NCBI GenBank assembly: GCA_029973975.1
Contig: JARKQF010000007.1
Location: 1-32,943, forward strand
DNA: 32,943 bases
Direction: 5' to 3'
Origin: Paludibacter sp.
GTDB lineage: Bacteria; Bacteroidota; Bacteroidia; Bacteroidales; Paludibacteraceae
In this document: positions 6,883-15,492 of the stretch, one piece after another
Position numbering within the stretch: the first letter of the stretch is position 1
Layout of the letters: every line of letters starts with the position of its first letter
The notes under the pieces: generated by a model
Database searches by the model: none
Told to the model about the DNA's origin: nothing
What the model saw: the letters and a program-made list of their open reading frames with translations, nothing else
Translations under genes and position numbers: made by a program

Positions 6883-8010
6883 TCATCTTTTAATTCTAAA
6901 TCCCATCTTAATTAATTTCTCAATCGTTTTTTGATCAACTGATTTAGCTTCAATCGCATAAGCAGGGAATTCTCTTCTTGTCGGATAATCTCCTCTTTGC
7001 TTCTCAAAATCAGCAGGTTTACTTCTGAACAAAGTATCATCATTTCTGATATCATACGTGTGCAGGATGGTTTTAGCAATAATTTGCTGTTCAGTTAATC
7101 CAGAGCCATCAATTTGAATAACAGGTTGAGCTGGCATTTCAATGCCCTGGGGATGCCAGTTTTCAAGTCCGAGATTAAAAAAACTACTGATAGCCTGAAC
7201 GCTCATCAAGGTACCCGTAGCTTTGCCATCTTTAGAATATCCGGCAATGTGCGGGGTGGCCAGATATGTCATTTCAAGGAGTTCGAGGTCAATATCCGGT
7301 TCATTTTCCCAACAATCGCACACGAAATCAGTAATTTCCCCTTTGATCAACGCCAACTTAACTGATTCTGTTCGGACTACTTCTCCTCTGCATGAATTAA
7401 TCAGTACCGGCTTCTTCTTCAGTGAATTAAAAAATGCATCATCAGCCAGGTGATAGGTTGCATCTTCTCCCTTTATATTCAACGGTACATGCAGGGTAAT
7501 GATATCAGCTTCGTTTTTAATGCGCTCCAGGCTAACAAAATCAGCTGAACCCTCAACCCTTTCCCGTGGCGGATCATTCAACAAAACCCTCATTCCCAGC
7601 AACTCACATATACCGGCGACCTTACTTCCCACATTACCTACACCTACGACTCCAATCGTAAGTTCATTCAAATTAAGTCTTTTTTCTCCGGCCAATACCA
7701 TCAGTACAGATGCAATGTATTGTTCCACTGATTTGGAATTACAACCCGGTGCATTTGTCCATTTTATACCTGCCCTGTTACAATAATCCGTATCGATATG
7801 ATCGTATCCTATCGTGGCGGTAGCAATGAACTTAACAGCAGAACCTGCAAGCAATTTCTCATTACAGATGGTGCGTGTACGTGTAATAACCGCATCCGCA
7901 TCATGTACGACATTGGCTGTTGTTTTAGAACCAGGCAGATAAAGTACTTCTGCTACTTTTTCAAAAGCACCGCGGATATAGGGAATTTTATCGTCGATTA
8001 TGATTTTCAT
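6883..8010 (-). CDS. pdxB: Erythronate-4-phosphate dehydrogenase
   Basis: The 375-residue protein is close to the usual PdxB length. It oxidises 4-phospho-D-erythronate to 2-oxo-3-hydroxy-4-phosphobutanoate in DXP-dependent pyridoxal phosphate synthesis. It shows the D-2-hydroxyacid dehydrogenase layout: IATATIGYDHIDTDYC, NAD loop GVGNVGSKVAG, the arginine in NSCRGEVV, the glutamate in ENEPDID and the histidine in TPHIAGYS. A C-terminal dimerisation region follows (about 280-375), which separates PdxB from other family members. It starts 5 bases after the upstream Gfo/Idh gene stops and is followed by gnd. Why a vitamin B6 gene rides in a hexuronate operon is unclear; both it and gnd touch the pentose phosphate network. 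Confidence 0.93.
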   Translation of the reverse strand: MKIIIDDKIPYIRGAFEKVAEVLYLPGSKTTANVVHDADAVITRTRTICNEKLLAGSAVKFIATATIGYDHIDTDYCNRAGIKWTNAPGCNSKSVEQYIASVLMVLAGEKRLNLNELTIGVVGVGNVGSKVAGICELLGMRVLLNDPPRERVEGSADFVSLERIKNEADIITLHVPLNIKGEDATYHLADDAFFNSLKKKPVLINSCRGEVVRTESVKLALIKGEITDFVCDCWENEPDIDLELLEMTYLATPHIAGYSKDGKATGTLMSVQAISSFFNLGLENWHPQGIEMPAQPVIQIDGSGLTEQQIIAKTILHTYDIRNDDTLFRSKPADFEKQRGDYPTRREFPAYAIEAKSVDQKTIEKLIKMGFRIKR

Positions 8011-9002: not shown

Positions 9003-9021
9003 TTACTATTTTTATATTTAC

Positions 9022-9054
9022 AATTTACGATTTAATGCGTACAAATCGTAAATT
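9022..9054. repeat. Perfect 12-bp inverted repeat in the larA-like / Gfo-Idh gap (family core ATTTACGATTT)
   Basis: AATTTACGATTT (9022-9033) and AAATCGTAAATT (9043-9054) are perfect reverse complements around a 9-base loop. The right arm includes bases of the larA-like TAA stop (9053-9055). The same core, TTTACGATTTA, recurs in the gaps at 10349-10590 and 13911-14005 of this operon. No T-run follows on the minus strand, so it is not a standard terminator; an RNA hairpin or a remnant of an inserted repeat fits better. Confidence 0.8.
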
Positions 9055-10342
9055 AATATTTAAATCGCTCTCTATACGCCCACAGCCCCAGCGCCGGATT
9101 GGAAATATAGAATATCTCTTCTCCATCCGGCATGATGTTAAATCCATCCTTCAATTTTTCAGGGTTGTATCTGGCCGTGACTTCTTCAATATCAGCATAA
9201 TTGAATCCCACACTTTCAATTTCAGCTCGGGTCAGGTTTTCTTTTCCTTTACCCGGACAATAAGTCACGCTAAAACGACCTTCCGAAGAACCATGGATCA
9301 AATGTGCGGCAGCACTCAGGTTATTACGCAATTCCTCATTTTCGTCACAGGCCTTTAATGTAGCAGGCGTTCCAAAATATCCGTATTTACGAATCAGACG
9401 GTCAATTTCCTTATCTTCTCCAAATTCAACCAAGGCAGGCGCCAACACTATCAATTCACCATCATCATCAATCGCCATGCGGGTACGGTAAATGGATTTA
9501 TTTCCCAACCAGGTACTTTTAAACTCAGTAGGATCAAGGTACACAACCACCTTTTTCAAAGGTCTGTCGAGCATTTCGAAATTCACCTCTAACGCCAGTT
9601 TTGCAGCTTTATCAAACACTTCGAAGTCATCACCGATAAAAAGTCCGCGACATTTCACTTTACCGTCAGTTTTATCCAGTCCCACTACCGTTTGCACATA
9701 CACAATCGGCAAATGATTGGCAAAATGATCAGAAGCATAATTAAAGATGCGGCGTACCGGAGTATCAGCATGTCCCATCATACGTTCCATACCATAAGCA
9801 GCACCAACAAAGTGACTTTTATTGATACCTTCAACTCCACCGGTTCCGACAAAAATGTTTTTATTGTAATTCGCCATGCCGACCACCTCGTGTGGTACTA
9901 CCTGACCAATAGACAAAATTAAATCAAAATTTCCATCCCGCAACAGTTTATTTACCTGTGCCGGCCAGGGGAAATCGACAGCGCCTTCCGAGACTTCTTT
10001 AACAAATTCGGAAGGTACCAGTCCTAACGTTACCACATCATTTCGCCAGTCATGTTCCCGAATCAGAGATGCTGGCAGAGTTCCGAACATGTGGGCAATC
10101 TGATGATCCGTCATCGGCGAGTGAGTTCCCAATGCCGGTAACACATCCGTCAACACATCACCATAATACTGCCAGGCATATTCAGTGAGTTCACCTGCAC
10201 GACTTGGAAGTCGCGTATAATCCGGTGGAATAGCAAGCACTTTGTGCTTCTTTCCCATTTTTTCCAGCGCTTCGTACAATCCTTTTTTCAGGTCTGCAGA
10301 AGTCAGTTCTATATTGGTAGAACCCCTTTCGTAATATAACAT
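9053..10342 (-). CDS. LarA-superfamily nickel-pincer racemase/epimerase homologue
   Basis: The 429-residue product fits the LarA (DUF2088) family, which uses the nickel-pincer NPN cofactor to invert the carbon bearing the hydroxyl of 2-hydroxy acids. Family landmarks are present: DYTR with Arg44, GTHSPMTDHQI with His74, then His151, Lys161 and His177. The His-x9-Lys-x15-His spacing equals that of His174, Lys184 and His200 in lactate racemase, where Lys carries NPN and His200 binds nickel, so the enzyme looks active. Lactate is an unlikely substrate in an operon of uxaB, uxaA, uxaE and an aldonate dehydrogenase. An aldonate 2-epimerase (for example mannonate/gluconate) is my inference. larB, larC and larE for cofactor synthesis are not in the window. 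Confidence 0.88.
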   Translation of the reverse strand: MLYYERGSTNIELTSADLKKGLYEALEKMGKKHKVLAIPPDYTRLPSRAGELTEYAWQYYGDVLTDVLPALGTHSPMTDHQIAHMFGTLPASLIREHDWRNDVVTLGLVPSEFVKEVSEGAVDFPWPAQVNKLLRDGNFDLILSIGQVVPHEVVGMANYNKNIFVGTGGVEGINKSHFVGAAYGMERMMGHADTPVRRIFNYASDHFANHLPIVYVQTVVGLDKTDGKVKCRGLFIGDDFEVFDKAAKLALEVNFEMLDRPLKKVVVYLDPTEFKSTWLGNKSIYRTRMAIDDDGELIVLAPALVEFGEDKEIDRLIRKYGYFGTPATLKACDENEELRNNLSAAAHLIHGSSEGRFSVTYCPGKGKENLTRAEIESVGFNYADIEEVTARYNPEKLKDGFNIMPDGEEIFYISNPALGLWAYRERFKY

Positions 10343-10348
10343 GATCTT

Positions 10349-10590
10349 CGATTTACTATTTTTTATTTACGATTTACTATTTTTAGCATTTTACAATCTT
10401 TTATTTACGATTTACTATTTAGTTTTTTCTTTAGTGTAATTATGGAACTATGTTATCAGGTAAATTTTCTGATAATTTGATAATTCTCAAACCAAAAACC
10501 TTTAAACGTTTTTTCAATTCTTCTTTCGTCATCTCCAGTTCAGATTAAAATATAAACAAACCACACAAAAATAGTAAATCGTAAATAAAA
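10349..10590. repeat. AT-rich element with 22-bp direct and inverted repeats in the kinase / larA-like gap
   Basis: The same 22-mer, containing ATTTACGATTTACTATTT, occurs at 10361-10382 and 10399-10420. Its exact reverse complement lies at 10569-10590, and a partial copy starts at 10349. In the operon transcript the inverted copies can pair into a 22-bp stem around a loop of about 150 bases. That loop holds a 30-codon remnant resembling a four-helix-bundle protein (10440-10532). The core is shared with the repeats at 9022-9054 and 13911-14005. The layout recalls intervening sequences of 23S rRNA, where terminal inverted repeats enclose such a gene. Confidence 0.85.
10440..10532 (-). pseudogene. 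Truncated four-helix-bundle (23S rRNA intervening-sequence type) protein remnant
   Basis: An ATG at 10532 after a CTGGAG stretch opens a 30-codon frame, MTKEELKKRLKVFGLRIIKL followed by SENLPDNIVP and TAA. I recognise this as resembling the first helix of the S23/IVP four-helix-bundle family, whose members begin MxxEELKxRTKxFALxxIKL and run to about 115-130 residues. The conserved GxQLxRSGTSxxANYRA segment is absent in all frames that follow, so the gene has lost its 3' three quarters. It sits inside a pair of exact 22-bp inverted repeats. Family assignment rests on pattern memory over 30 residues, so it is tentative. Confidence 0.6.
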
Positions 10591-10605
10591 AAATTGTAAA
10601 TAATA

Positions 10606-11682
10606 CTATCGTTTCACTCTTGCATTTCCTCCCCAGATACTCCACACCTGTTCTTCATCAGCAGGTTGTGCGTAATCGGTCAGGAAGGTTGTTGCCAGTG
10701 CACCGGTTGCCCAACCGAATTGTGCCCATTTTTCTGATTCCCAACCTTTCAGGATAGCATATAACATACCGCCTACAAAGCCGTCACCACCACCAATACG
10801 GTCGAGTACATTGATTTTTCTGGGTTGAATAACATGCCAGTTTTGACCATCTAACAATATAGCCCCCCATAAATGTTCATTGGTACTGATAACCTGACGC
10901 AGTGTAGTAGCATAAACAGAGGCATTGGGGAACGCAGCTTTCACCCGTCCGATCATACCTTTAAATCCTTCAATCTCAGCTTCAATACCCTTACCTCCTG
11001 CTTCAGGGCCCTCAATACCCAAACATAACTGGAAATCCTCTTCATTTCCAATTAAAATATCTGATACAGAAGCTATTTCAGTAAATATCTCACGTAATTC
11101 TTTATCTCTTCCTTTCCAGAAAGAAGCCCGGTAATTCAGATCGAAAGAAATACGGGTACCAGTTTTTTTAGCATAGCGAGCCAATTGCAGACAGAAATTA
11201 CTGGTTTCGGGAGATAAGGCGCCAATCAATCCCGAAAGATGAAGAATTTGAACCCCTTCTTTTTCAAAAATACGTTCCAAATCAAAATCTTTGACGTTGA
11301 GTGTACGTCCCACCTCACCGGCACGATCATTCAACACACGGGGGCCGCGTGTTCCGAATCCACTGTCGGCAATATTGAACTGATGGCGATATCCCCACGG
11401 ATCACCCTGAGCAACTTCCGGGCCTTCATAATCCATATTACGACTACGCAAATCAGCCTTAATCAATTGAGCAATCGGACTATCTTTCACAAAGGTAGTC
11501 AGTACTTTAACTGGCAATCCAAGGAAAGATGCAATACTAGCCACATTGGTTTCAGCACTTGTTGCCTGCATTTCGAACAGCTTACTGCTGTGTACCGGTT
11601 GTCCGTTCAACGGAGTAATACGAATACCCATACTGGTTGCAACCATCAGGGAGTATTTAGAATTTTCTTTCAGTGTTATCAT
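10606..11682 (-). CDS. kdgK: PfkB-family sugar kinase, probable 2-dehydro-3-deoxygluconate kinase
   Basis: The 358-residue cytosolic protein has ribokinase/PfkB features: the sugar-binding N-terminal region, FDLNYRASFW (180-189), a motif typical of KDG kinases, and the C-terminal ATP/anion-hole motif DRIGGGDGFVGG (294-305) with Asp300 as the catalytic base. The second residue of that motif is Arg and the usual GAGD is GGGD, a variant that departs from the standard PfkB signature. KDG kinase phosphorylates 2-keto-3-deoxygluconate to KDPG before aldolase cleavage. Position in the operon after uxaA supports this role. A gluconate or other aldonate substrate cannot be excluded. It is longer than the approximately 310 residues of E. 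coli KdgK. Confidence 0.78.
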   Translation of the reverse strand: MITLKENSKYSLMVATSMGIRITPLNGQPVHSSKLFEMQATSAETNVASIASFLGLPVKVLTTFVKDSPIAQLIKADLRSRNMDYEGPEVAQGDPWGYRHQFNIADSGFGTRGPRVLNDRAGEVGRTLNVKDFDLERIFEKEGVQILHLSGLIGALSPETSNFCLQLARYAKKTGTRISFDLNYRASFWKGRDKELREIFTEIASVSDILIGNEEDFQLCLGIEGPEAGGKGIEAEIEGFKGMIGRVKAAFPNASVYATTLRQVISTNEHLWGAILLDGQNWHVIQPRKINVLDRIGGGDGFVGGMLYAILKGWESEKWAQFGWATGALATTFLTDYAQPADEEQVWSIWGGNARVKR

Positions 11683-13873: not shown

Positions 13874-13910
13874 AATTATAATTTTATGTATTACTTTTTT
13901 ATTAATTTGT

Positions 13911-14005
13911 AATTTACAATTTATTCATTTACGATTTACTATTTATTTTCGGAAGCTGTTGGTTATTTTATGAAATCGTAAATTGTAAATAAAAGAATCG
14001 TAAAT
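13911..14005. repeat. AT-rich inverted-repeat element in the uxaA / uxaE gap
   Basis: ATTTACAATTTA (13912-13923) pairs with TAAATTGTAAAT (13979-13990), and inside it CGATTT (13932-13937) pairs with AAATCG (13973-13978), leaving a bulge. ATTTACGATTTACTATTT (13927-13944) is the same core found at 10361-10420 and 10569-10590. A further inverted copy, AATCGTAAAT, lies at 13996-14005. The 35-base centre has no recognisable gene. It looks like an empty or decayed relative of the larger element at 10349-10590. Confidence 0.8.
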
Positions 14006-14007
14006 CA

Positions 14008-15492
14008 TCAAAGTGTTACCCCAGTTTTAAAAATCGCTATTTCCCGGTAATTTTTCTTTTCGTTATTGACATAAGTTCCGTTTATCACGTCTGTTATGTA
14101 CGCGATAAATCGCTTGTTTACCTGTTCAATCGATTCATCCTCTACGATCGTACCTGCATTAAAATCAATCCAACCCGGTTTTTTTTCGTATAATGCCGTA
14201 TTGGTTGAAATTTTCATGGTAGGTACAAAAGTCCCGAATGGTGTCCCCCTGCCTGTTGTAAACAGCACCAAATGACAACCACTTGCTGCCAGCGCTGTCG
14301 CTGCAACCAGATCATTTCCGGGCGAACTGAGCAAATTCAGACCTTTGATTTTAAGTCGTTCGCCATACATCAACACATCCATCACCGGCGATTTACCACA
14401 TTTCTGGGTACAGCCCAGTGATTTTTCTTCTAAAGTCGAAATTCCTCCGGCTTTGTTTCCCGGTGAAGGATTCTCATATACAGGCTGGTTGTTTCTGATG
14501 AAATATTCTTTAAAATCATTGATCAGGAAGACTGTTTTTTCGAACATCTCCCTATTGACACAACGGTTCATCAAAATAGTTTCGGCACCAAACATTTCAG
14601 GTACTTCCGTTAAAACAGTTGTACCGCCCTGAGCTACCAGAAAGTCGGAGAACACTCCCAGTAAAGGGTTTGCCGTGATACCTGACAGACCATCGGAACC
14701 GCCGCATTTCAATCCTACTTTCAATTCCGAGAACGGAACATCTACTCTTTCATCTTTTGAGGCAACTGCATATATTTCACGAAGCAACTCCATACCGGTT
14801 TCCACTTCATCTTCCACTTTTTGGGTTTCCATGAATTTTACGCGAGTGTCATCAAAATCACCCAGCAGTTCCTTAAAAGCAGACACTTGGTTGTTTTCAC
14901 ATCCGAGTCCTACTACCAGCACACCTCCCGCATTAGGATGTTTCACCATGTTGCGAAGCACTTTCCGGGTATTTTCGTGGTCGTCACCCAATTGCGAGCA
15001 ACCATAATTATGCGGATAAGCAATCACAGCATCAACACCTCTCAACTGCGTTTCTTCTCTGAGTTGTTGCGCCAGTTCCTGAATCGTACCATTCACACAT
15101 CCGACAGTAGGAATAATCCAAATCTCATTACGAATTCCCACTTCACCATTACGTCTCCTGTATCCTTTGAAGGTATAATTCAAGTTTTGGATTTCAGGCA
15201 CTTCATTTACAGGATTATATGAATATTCAAGAACACCTTCAAGATTCGTTTTTACGGTCTTCTCGTTCACCCAGTCACCAACACTCACAGGTACAACTGC
15301 GTGCCCTATCGGATAACCATACTTGATAACATCCTCATTCACGGCAATATTCCGGATCGCAAATTTATGTCCCCGCGGAATATCCGCATTAAGCACTATA
15401 TCATTATCATCCAGGACAATGGACAGGCCAGACGGAAGATCCTCCAAGGCAACAGCCACATTATCAGCAATATTTATCTTTAAAAAATTCAT
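14008..15492 (-). CDS. uxaA: Altronate dehydratase
   Basis: The 494-residue product matches E. coli UxaA in length and layout. It has an N-terminal SAF domain (about 10-85, with GHKFAIRNIAVNEDVIKYG) and a catalytic UxaA domain with YPHNYGCSQLGDDHENT, GLGCENNQ, LKCGGSDGLSGITANP and EKSLGCTQKCGKSPV. The conserved cysteines and histidines of the iron-dependent dehydratase are all visible. It converts D-altronate to 2-keto-3-deoxygluconate, the product of the UxaB reaction being its substrate. It follows uxaB by 24 bases and precedes uxaE after a repeat-bearing gap. The galactarate/altronate dehydratase superfamily shares this fold, but the neighbours make altronate the natural assignment. Confidence 0.93.
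   Translation of the reverse strand: MNFLKINIADNVAVALEDLPSGLSIVLDDNDIVLNADIPRGHKFAIRNIAVNEDVIKYGYPIGHAVVPVSVGDWVNEKTVKTNLEGVLEYSYNPVNEVPEIQNLNYTFKGYRRRNGEVGIRNEIWIIPTVGCVNGTIQELAQQLREETQLRGVDAVIAYPHNYGCSQLGDDHENTRKVLRNMVKHPNAGGVLVVGLGCENNQVSAFKELLGDFDDTRVKFMETQKVEDEVETGMELLREIYAVASKDERVDVPFSELKVGLKCGGSDGLSGITANPLLGVFSDFLVAQGGTTVLTEVPEMFGAETILMNRCVNREMFEKTVFLINDFKEYFIRNNQPVYENPSPGNKAGGISTLEEKSLGCTQKCGKSPVMDVLMYGERLKIKGLNLLSSPGNDLVAATALAASGCHLVLFTTGRGTPFGTFVPTMKISTNTALYEKKPGWIDFNAGTIVEDESIEQVNKRFIAYITDVINGTYVNNEKKNYREIAIFKTGVTL

Follow-up and report, generated by a model that had tools for sequence, protein, structure and literature searches.

The window analysed in this work is a stretch of 32,943 nucleotides of Paludibacter sp. 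(contig JARKQF010000007.1 of assembly GCA_029973975.1), and the gap between a sugar kinase gene and a LarA-type gene in it probably holds (we would put this at about 0.7) a small mobile unit in a decayed state, an operon relative of the intervening sequences (IVSs) of 23S rRNA. Such a unit would consist of one four-helix-bundle gene of the PF05635 family, with no transposase inside, within inverted arrays of degenerate tandem repeats, usually of 7 nt. A sequence-only reading of the window had noted an IVS-like element at this place; that observation was right in substance and pointed to something larger.

The repeats of the element are made up of a degenerate tandem heptad, ATTTACN. The sequence-only reading had described a 22-mer (TTTTATTTACGATTTACTATTT) in two direct copies and one inverted copy. 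These are present, the direct copies ending at 10382 and 10420 and the inverted copy starting at 10569, and window repeat analysis extends the inverted pair to an exact 26 bp (10359-10384 and 10567-10592); the tandem-heptad makeup had been missed. The upstream arm (5' in the operon sense; 10567..10601, minus strand) is an inverted repeat of the heptads ATTTACA..ATTTACG ATTTACT ATTT, and a like arm is found in the orthologues at the same site. The downstream (3') arm (10388..10420, minus strand, 33 nt) pairs with 10569-10601 at 85% complementarity. An additional tandem copy of the downstream arm is located at 10344..10385 on the minus strand, and its positions 10359-10384 form the exact 26-bp complement of 10567-10592. 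Allowing up to 3 mismatches, an 18-mer core of the repeat matched 10 times in the window; in 100 dinucleotide shuffles it averaged 0.15 matches and never exceeded 2. ATTTACGATTTAC matches the genome exactly at 17 places, and its reversed control at 0.

Between the arms lies a frame of 30 codons, MTKEELKKRLKVFGLRIIKLSENLPDNIVP (10440-10532, minus strand), on the strand common to the kinase and LarA-like genes. By sequence comparison, this frame is the N-terminus of a decayed PF05635/TIGR02436 four-helix-bundle (S23/IVP) gene, of which about the first 28 codons are left before a stop. Its peptide is identical at 21/26 positions to the protein of L062 (blastp E 6e-13, single comparison), an intact gene at the kinase-LarA junction of a related genome, and the frame aligns at the DNA level with the same-site orthologues at the same position. 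These results bear out the earlier proposal that a decayed S23/IVP gene lies between the kinase and the LarA-type gene. The earlier reading had named a frame without a family match in a profile search as an outcome that would refute it, and to the letter this is what was obtained: profile search gave the remnant of 30 amino acids no IVP match in Pfam or NCBIfam. The same-site orthologue L062 matches PF05635 at 1e-16 (61.4 bits, cut-off 33.8) and TIGR02436 with 91.8 bits (cut-off 24), which is why the miss of the short peptide is read as an effect of its length. A stretch of 25 nt next to the 3' arm (10421..10445, minus strand) is tentatively taken as what is left of the gene's 3' end. In the L060 element, the 3' part is identical to it at 20/23 positions (0/500 shuffles); the comparison with five other orthologues gave no significance (1/6 significant overall). 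With an N-terminal frame and a 3'-like stretch, the window copy therefore looks like a gene without its middle, the internal deletion being estimated at about 80 codons.

Because the remnant peptide alone has no profile match, the LarA locus was compared across the genus. The LarA gene was matched in 33 of 40 genus genomes, and 30 loci were compared (our own and those of 29 relatives). The kinase-LarA junction proved highly variable. Eight of the 30 loci contain, within ATTTAC arms, a four-helix-bundle gene here called type A (protein sequence MT.DELKKRLKVFALRIIKLSES...); it is open in six (L057, L060, L062, L065, L073, which is the same as L246, and L078) and disrupted in two (L066 and L070). 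Two more (L055, L077) hold another member of the PF05635 family, flanked by 6-nt GGCTTA repeats. Four of the 30 (L068, L071, L072, L076) have an ATTTAC hairpin and no gene, and the hairpin of L071 is, by eye, a deletion relic as well. Mixed arrays with no gene are present in L075, different short inverted repeats in L051 and L063, and an unrelated gap of 440 nt in L079; four loci (L054, L056, L058, L059) were without a kinase or without a clear class, and our own relic completes the 30. Empty sites, for which the earlier reading had suggested looking in related strains, do exist: in 7/30 loci (L052, L053, L061, L064, L067, L069, L074) the gap measures 7-129 nt and no element is present. In the disrupted copy at L066:2785-3403, an insert of about 120 nt breaks the type-A gene near codon 17; its ends are inverted (AGTTTATACT and AGTATAAACT, by eye), and it resembles a miniature inverted-repeat element.

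Three other contexts (G033, G035 and G009) hold type-A genes, with identities to L062 of 88, 85 and 80%, so that the repeat flanks four-helix-bundle genes at the same junction and at other sites; the refuting case named in the earlier reading, a repeat that never flanks such genes elsewhere, does not arise. In G033, the type-A gene directly follows LarA and precedes a pdxB-like gene (by eye); in G035, it again precedes a pdxB-like gene, itself follows a different gene and carries an internal stop; in G009, it stands behind a kinase, with no LarA gene following within the sequence examined. Clear inverted ATTTAC arms are present in G033 and G035; in G009 the 5' array is clear and the 3' array weak. 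More distant copies (59 and 57%) are found in G015 and G002 before an aldolase-like gene, with related repeats on both sides and in both directions. The occurrence of close type-A relatives in different operons with like arms suggests that gene and arms move as a unit, although movement itself is what we infer here.

In the related set defined below, pairs of loci at least 60% identical and with no common neighbour gene shared arm 8-mers at 0.033, against 0.016 in permutations (0/1999), and sharing above 0.04 was reached by 37/108 pairs at or above 60% identity compared with 9/3942 pairs below it. Since arm words are shared only at 60% identity or more, arms seem to be carried along first and replaced later. 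The dispersed arrays vary with the gene too: genomes with a type-A gene (n=13) have a median of 29 ATTTAC arrays and those without (n=26) a median of 4 (p 7.6e-4), in a comparison that excludes our own genome, is uncorrected for phylogeny and defines type A by a cut of at least 57% identity picked after the hits were seen. The reversed-pattern control gave 0-5 per genome, and 12 in G035. This abundance is in keeping with a single element that has gene-bearing and gene-less forms. An array of about 12 ATTTACN heptads in one direction at L308:1491-1580 (G025) is a possible site of array growth.

Inverted arms are frequent in the family more widely. PF05635 matches were found in 50/60 genomes (our own included), with 0 to 15 in each. 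The related set comprises 92 loci (2 of our own, 30 returned by search and 60 from among the matches listed), of which 90 were usable and 2 were dropped for short flanks; a named set comprises the best 80 of at least 588 candidates, 78 of them usable and 2 likewise dropped. To obtain the arm score, the right flank was reverse-complemented and aligned locally to the left one; the threshold was set at 16 or more. It was reached in 59/90 related PF05635 loci within the order, against 1/286 control open reading frames (ORFs) of G016, a genome without ATTTAC arrays, and then 0/274 ORFs from 13 other genomes. Named loci reached it in 34/78, against 24/6006 cross pairs. Because only 1/560 control ORFs has such arms, the association appears specific to PF05635. 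Strong inverted arms (CTGTTCACTGATAA type) occur in a single control gene (L097, reverse strand 7430-7990), which looks by eye like an AraC-type regulator. Tandem repeats with a period of 6-10 were present in at least one flank at 46/90 loci, compared with 5/286 and 13/274 control ORFs. The best period was 7 in 109/182 related flanks (shuffled 11), periods 8 and 9 coming next, and in 94/156 flanks of named loci (shuffled 8). The repeat unit is specific to the locus (GTTACGA, AGAACCA, AGTTGAC and many more); in distant family members the arm sequences are unrelated, yet the two arms of one locus are complementary. Clear cases extend beyond Bacteroidota to Thiohalocapsa, Bosea, Ruminococcus, Anaerolineae and Patescibacteria. 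Structures have been solved for relatives of the protein (2GSC, 2RLD), and one PF05635-like match (G034:C9:57459-57779) lies within an open frame of 345 residues, possibly a fusion.

Both neighbours were called at 83 related loci; the gene is in sense between two co-directional genes at 80 of these, in antisense at none and elsewhere at 3; 273 control ORFs gave 162 sense, 16 antisense and 95 mixed. Gene calls were mechanical, with errors in GC-rich loci, and at least two script-called exceptions among the named loci (L207 and L228) were read as sense by eye. As the unit stands in sense between co-directional genes, its gene is probably expressed from the host operon. In G014, G025 and our own genome, the ATTTAC arrays group into 56 clusters at 51 loci, and 0/51 of these loci hold a PF05635-family gene. 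Of the clusters outside ORFs, 53 were classified (44 in co-directional gaps, 7 in convergent and 2 in divergent ones) and set against 197 control gaps, each 40 nt or longer (138, 29 and 30, respectively). Arrays avoid divergent gaps at nominal significance (p 0.034), and their excess in co-directional gaps was not significant (p 0.08). Four-helix-bundle genes recur (L021-L024, L026-L028) at what looks by eye like an sdhA-sdhB junction (fumarate reductase / succinate dehydrogenase), where the repeats differ among species; in Capnocytophaga felis (L234) a four-helix gene precedes an sdhB-like gene. Read by eye, the unit also stands directly before a nuoD-like gene in Bosea sp. OK403 (L228:2001-2312) and before a pheS-like gene in an Anaerolineae genome (L219:2001-2312).

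The anatomy of the window element is that of a 23S rRNA IVS. Both have an S23/IVP gene that is decaying, stem-forming terminal inverted repeats and a size of about 0.4-0.5 kb. The available part of one paper on Coxiella reports for its 23S rRNA IVS an S23p gene preceded by tandem heptamers, terminal inverted repeats and cleavage by RNase III in vitro; it discusses an origin by transposition and calls the origin of these IVSs unclear (PMC4990558). The unit described here differs in lying between protein genes of an operon, in having locus-specific arrays as arms and in reaching several copies in many genomes. The window gave no Rfam match, and the element, being outside rRNA and not inserted in a 23S rRNA gene, is not a 23S rRNA IVS by membership. 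In a check for members inside rRNA, 20/23 of the named loci without two sense neighbours gave no Rfam match, so the link to rRNA rests on the Coxiella paper, as far as its text was available (PMC4990558).

In the proposed mobile unit, gene and arms would move jointly. Their complementarity is most likely kept at the DNA level, either because inverted ends are used by a mobility machinery or because template switching lets the arms correct each other. At the LarA site, the left arm fits the right arm of its own species better than those of others (mean 20.2 vs 16.4, 0/9999 permutations, 12 loci). The most likely target of the protein would be the folded arms, through their structure or period rather than their exact sequence, and this is the weakest step of the scheme. 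An internal deletion of the gene would leave hairpin relics, as apparently in the window and, by eye, in L071; the remaining gene-less hairpins may stem from other origins. Several results weigh against this scheme. Family-wide sequence-specific co-evolution of protein and arms was rejected (Mantel r -0.03, 906/999 permutations at or above), and the absent correlation speaks against sequence-specific binding. The arm score stayed below threshold in 31/90 related and 44/78 named loci. Named loci are also looser in orientation (57/73 sense, 5 antisense, 11 mixed). Because loci sharing a site are not independent, there were fewer separate events than the counts suggest. G020 and G005 are rich in ATTTAC arrays without a type-A gene, and no excision, insertion or target duplication was seen.

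An unlikely competitor, which the earlier reading had also raised, places the function of the arms at the RNA level: they would pair in the polycistronic mRNA, RNase III would cut the stem, and the gene segment would be excised and the cistrons separated. The Coxiella IVS, with its like gene, terminal inverted repeats, RNase III cutting in vitro and heptamers before the S23p frame, provides the precedent in the text available (PMC4990558). The sense orientation of 80/83 loci agrees with it, and so does the transcript of the window element, which folds with a z of -4.11 (0/200 shuffles); the lack of an own promoter explains the sense bias equally well. Among mismatches within the arms, pairing selected in sense RNA would favour G-U over A-C. 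With loci of arm score at least 14, G-U and A-C mismatches numbered 181:161 in 68/90 related loci (two-sided p 0.30, no G-U excess), 60:89 in 44/78 named loci (p 0.02, in the opposite direction) and 8:10 in 10/11 loci of the LarA site (L068 left out). Selection on an RNA stem, and with it the stem role once suggested for the transcript, receives no support from this test. The mismatch pattern points to upkeep at the DNA level rather than to a selected RNA stem; the RNase III part is unsupported because arm pairing bears no sign of upkeep in RNA.

Somewhat less probable is that the heptad hairpins are primary, arising and spreading by slippage and template switching or through a trans-acting transposase, and that the four-helix genes are passengers that settle in them. 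ATTTAC arrays do outnumber type-A genes (up to 89 matches per genome), none of the 51 array loci checked holds a family gene, Y1 transposase matches occur in 33/40 genus genomes, the AraC-like control gene (by eye) sits in such arms too, and G020 and G005 are again in line with it. If hairpins merely collected passengers, however, the single case among 560 control ORFs, the larger number of arrays in type-A genomes (median 29 vs 4, with a post-hoc cut and phylogeny uncorrected) and the unit of G033, a genome without a Y1 match, would be hard to accommodate, as would the deletion relics in the window and, by eye, in L071. It is improbable that the protein is a domesticated regulator that adjusts operon expression to the benefit of the host by binding the arms within its own mRNA. 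Recurrent sites in central-looking operons, such as the sdhA-sdhB junction (by eye), would suit such a role, but presence varies among related species, arm sequence is not conserved, and internal stops, an interruption and relics are met. Chance AT-rich repeats around a meaningless short frame would account for a lone peptide without an IVP profile match; this explanation is refuted by the 10 core repeats against at most 2 in shuffles and by the orthologous genes at the same site, and deserves almost no weight.

The mobile-unit reading can be set against other known systems as well. TAACTGA heptad arrays resemble the unit in being intergenic tandem heptads with a patchy spread; horizontal spread is suspected for them with no mechanism evident, and they are described as direct repeats, unlike the inverted pairs that enclose a four-helix-bundle gene here, the terms S23, IVP and four helix being absent from the available text (PMC4679880). 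Two genome papers list four-helix-bundle genes and, in the parts at hand, do not comment on repeats (PMC5524665, PMC8700078). A literature search, which left most subscription journals outside, returned no paper recognised as connecting inverted heptad arrays with PF05635 genes that lie outside rRNA. The short tandemly repeated repetitive sequences (STRRs) of cyanobacteria are likewise intergenic tandem heptanucleotide repeats. REPIN/RAYT systems and miniature inverted-repeat transposable elements (MITEs) are short dispersed inverted-repeat elements that include gene-less forms, and the hallmark of REPIN/RAYT is a conserved palindromic REP sequence with a tag tetranucleotide. The unit differs from these in lacking a Y1 transposase and in having arms of tandem repeats with changing sequence; G000 has 3 Y1 matches, and G033 and G006 have PF05635 genes without any. 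Avd of diversity-generating retroelements gave weak matches below cut-off (NF033474, E 0.007, L001; PF22296, E 0.001, L055), but the gaps of 446-537 nt in the open copies L057, L060, L062 and L065 are too short to accommodate a reverse transcriptase or template repeat.

A wider generalisation, to which we give slightly less than even odds, is that most bacterial PF05635 'four helix bundle' genes are cargo of one unrecognised class of selfish elements. Their ends would be inverted tandem heptads that are rewritten and still complementary, they would spread through operon gaps without a transposase of their own, and the 23S rRNA IVSs and dispersed heptads would be their rRNA-lodged and gene-less forms. 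If true, this would link the orphan four-helix-bundle genes, the origin of 23S rRNA IVSs and the spread of intergenic heptad repeats. Units should then be findable as inverted heptads around PF05635 genes, in sense and inside operons, and their dead remains would be foreseeable. It would also raise the question of how an element moves without a recognisable transposase and how its ends stay complementary while their sequence is replaced.

The operon neighbours of the window element are both encoded on the minus strand: upstream a sugar kinase of the PfkB family (10606..11682; PF00294, 9.1e-20) and downstream the LarA-type gene (9053..10342; NF052594, 5.7e-198; Lar_N, 2.9e-06), whose NCBIfam match is named nickel-dependent putative hexonate epimerase. 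The two are members of a sugar-acid operon. Another gap of the same gene cluster contains a gene-less hairpin of ATTTACN heptads (13898..14016), and a further ATTTACN array (9016..9033) lies in the gap after the LarA gene, where the relative G033 has its open copy of the unit.
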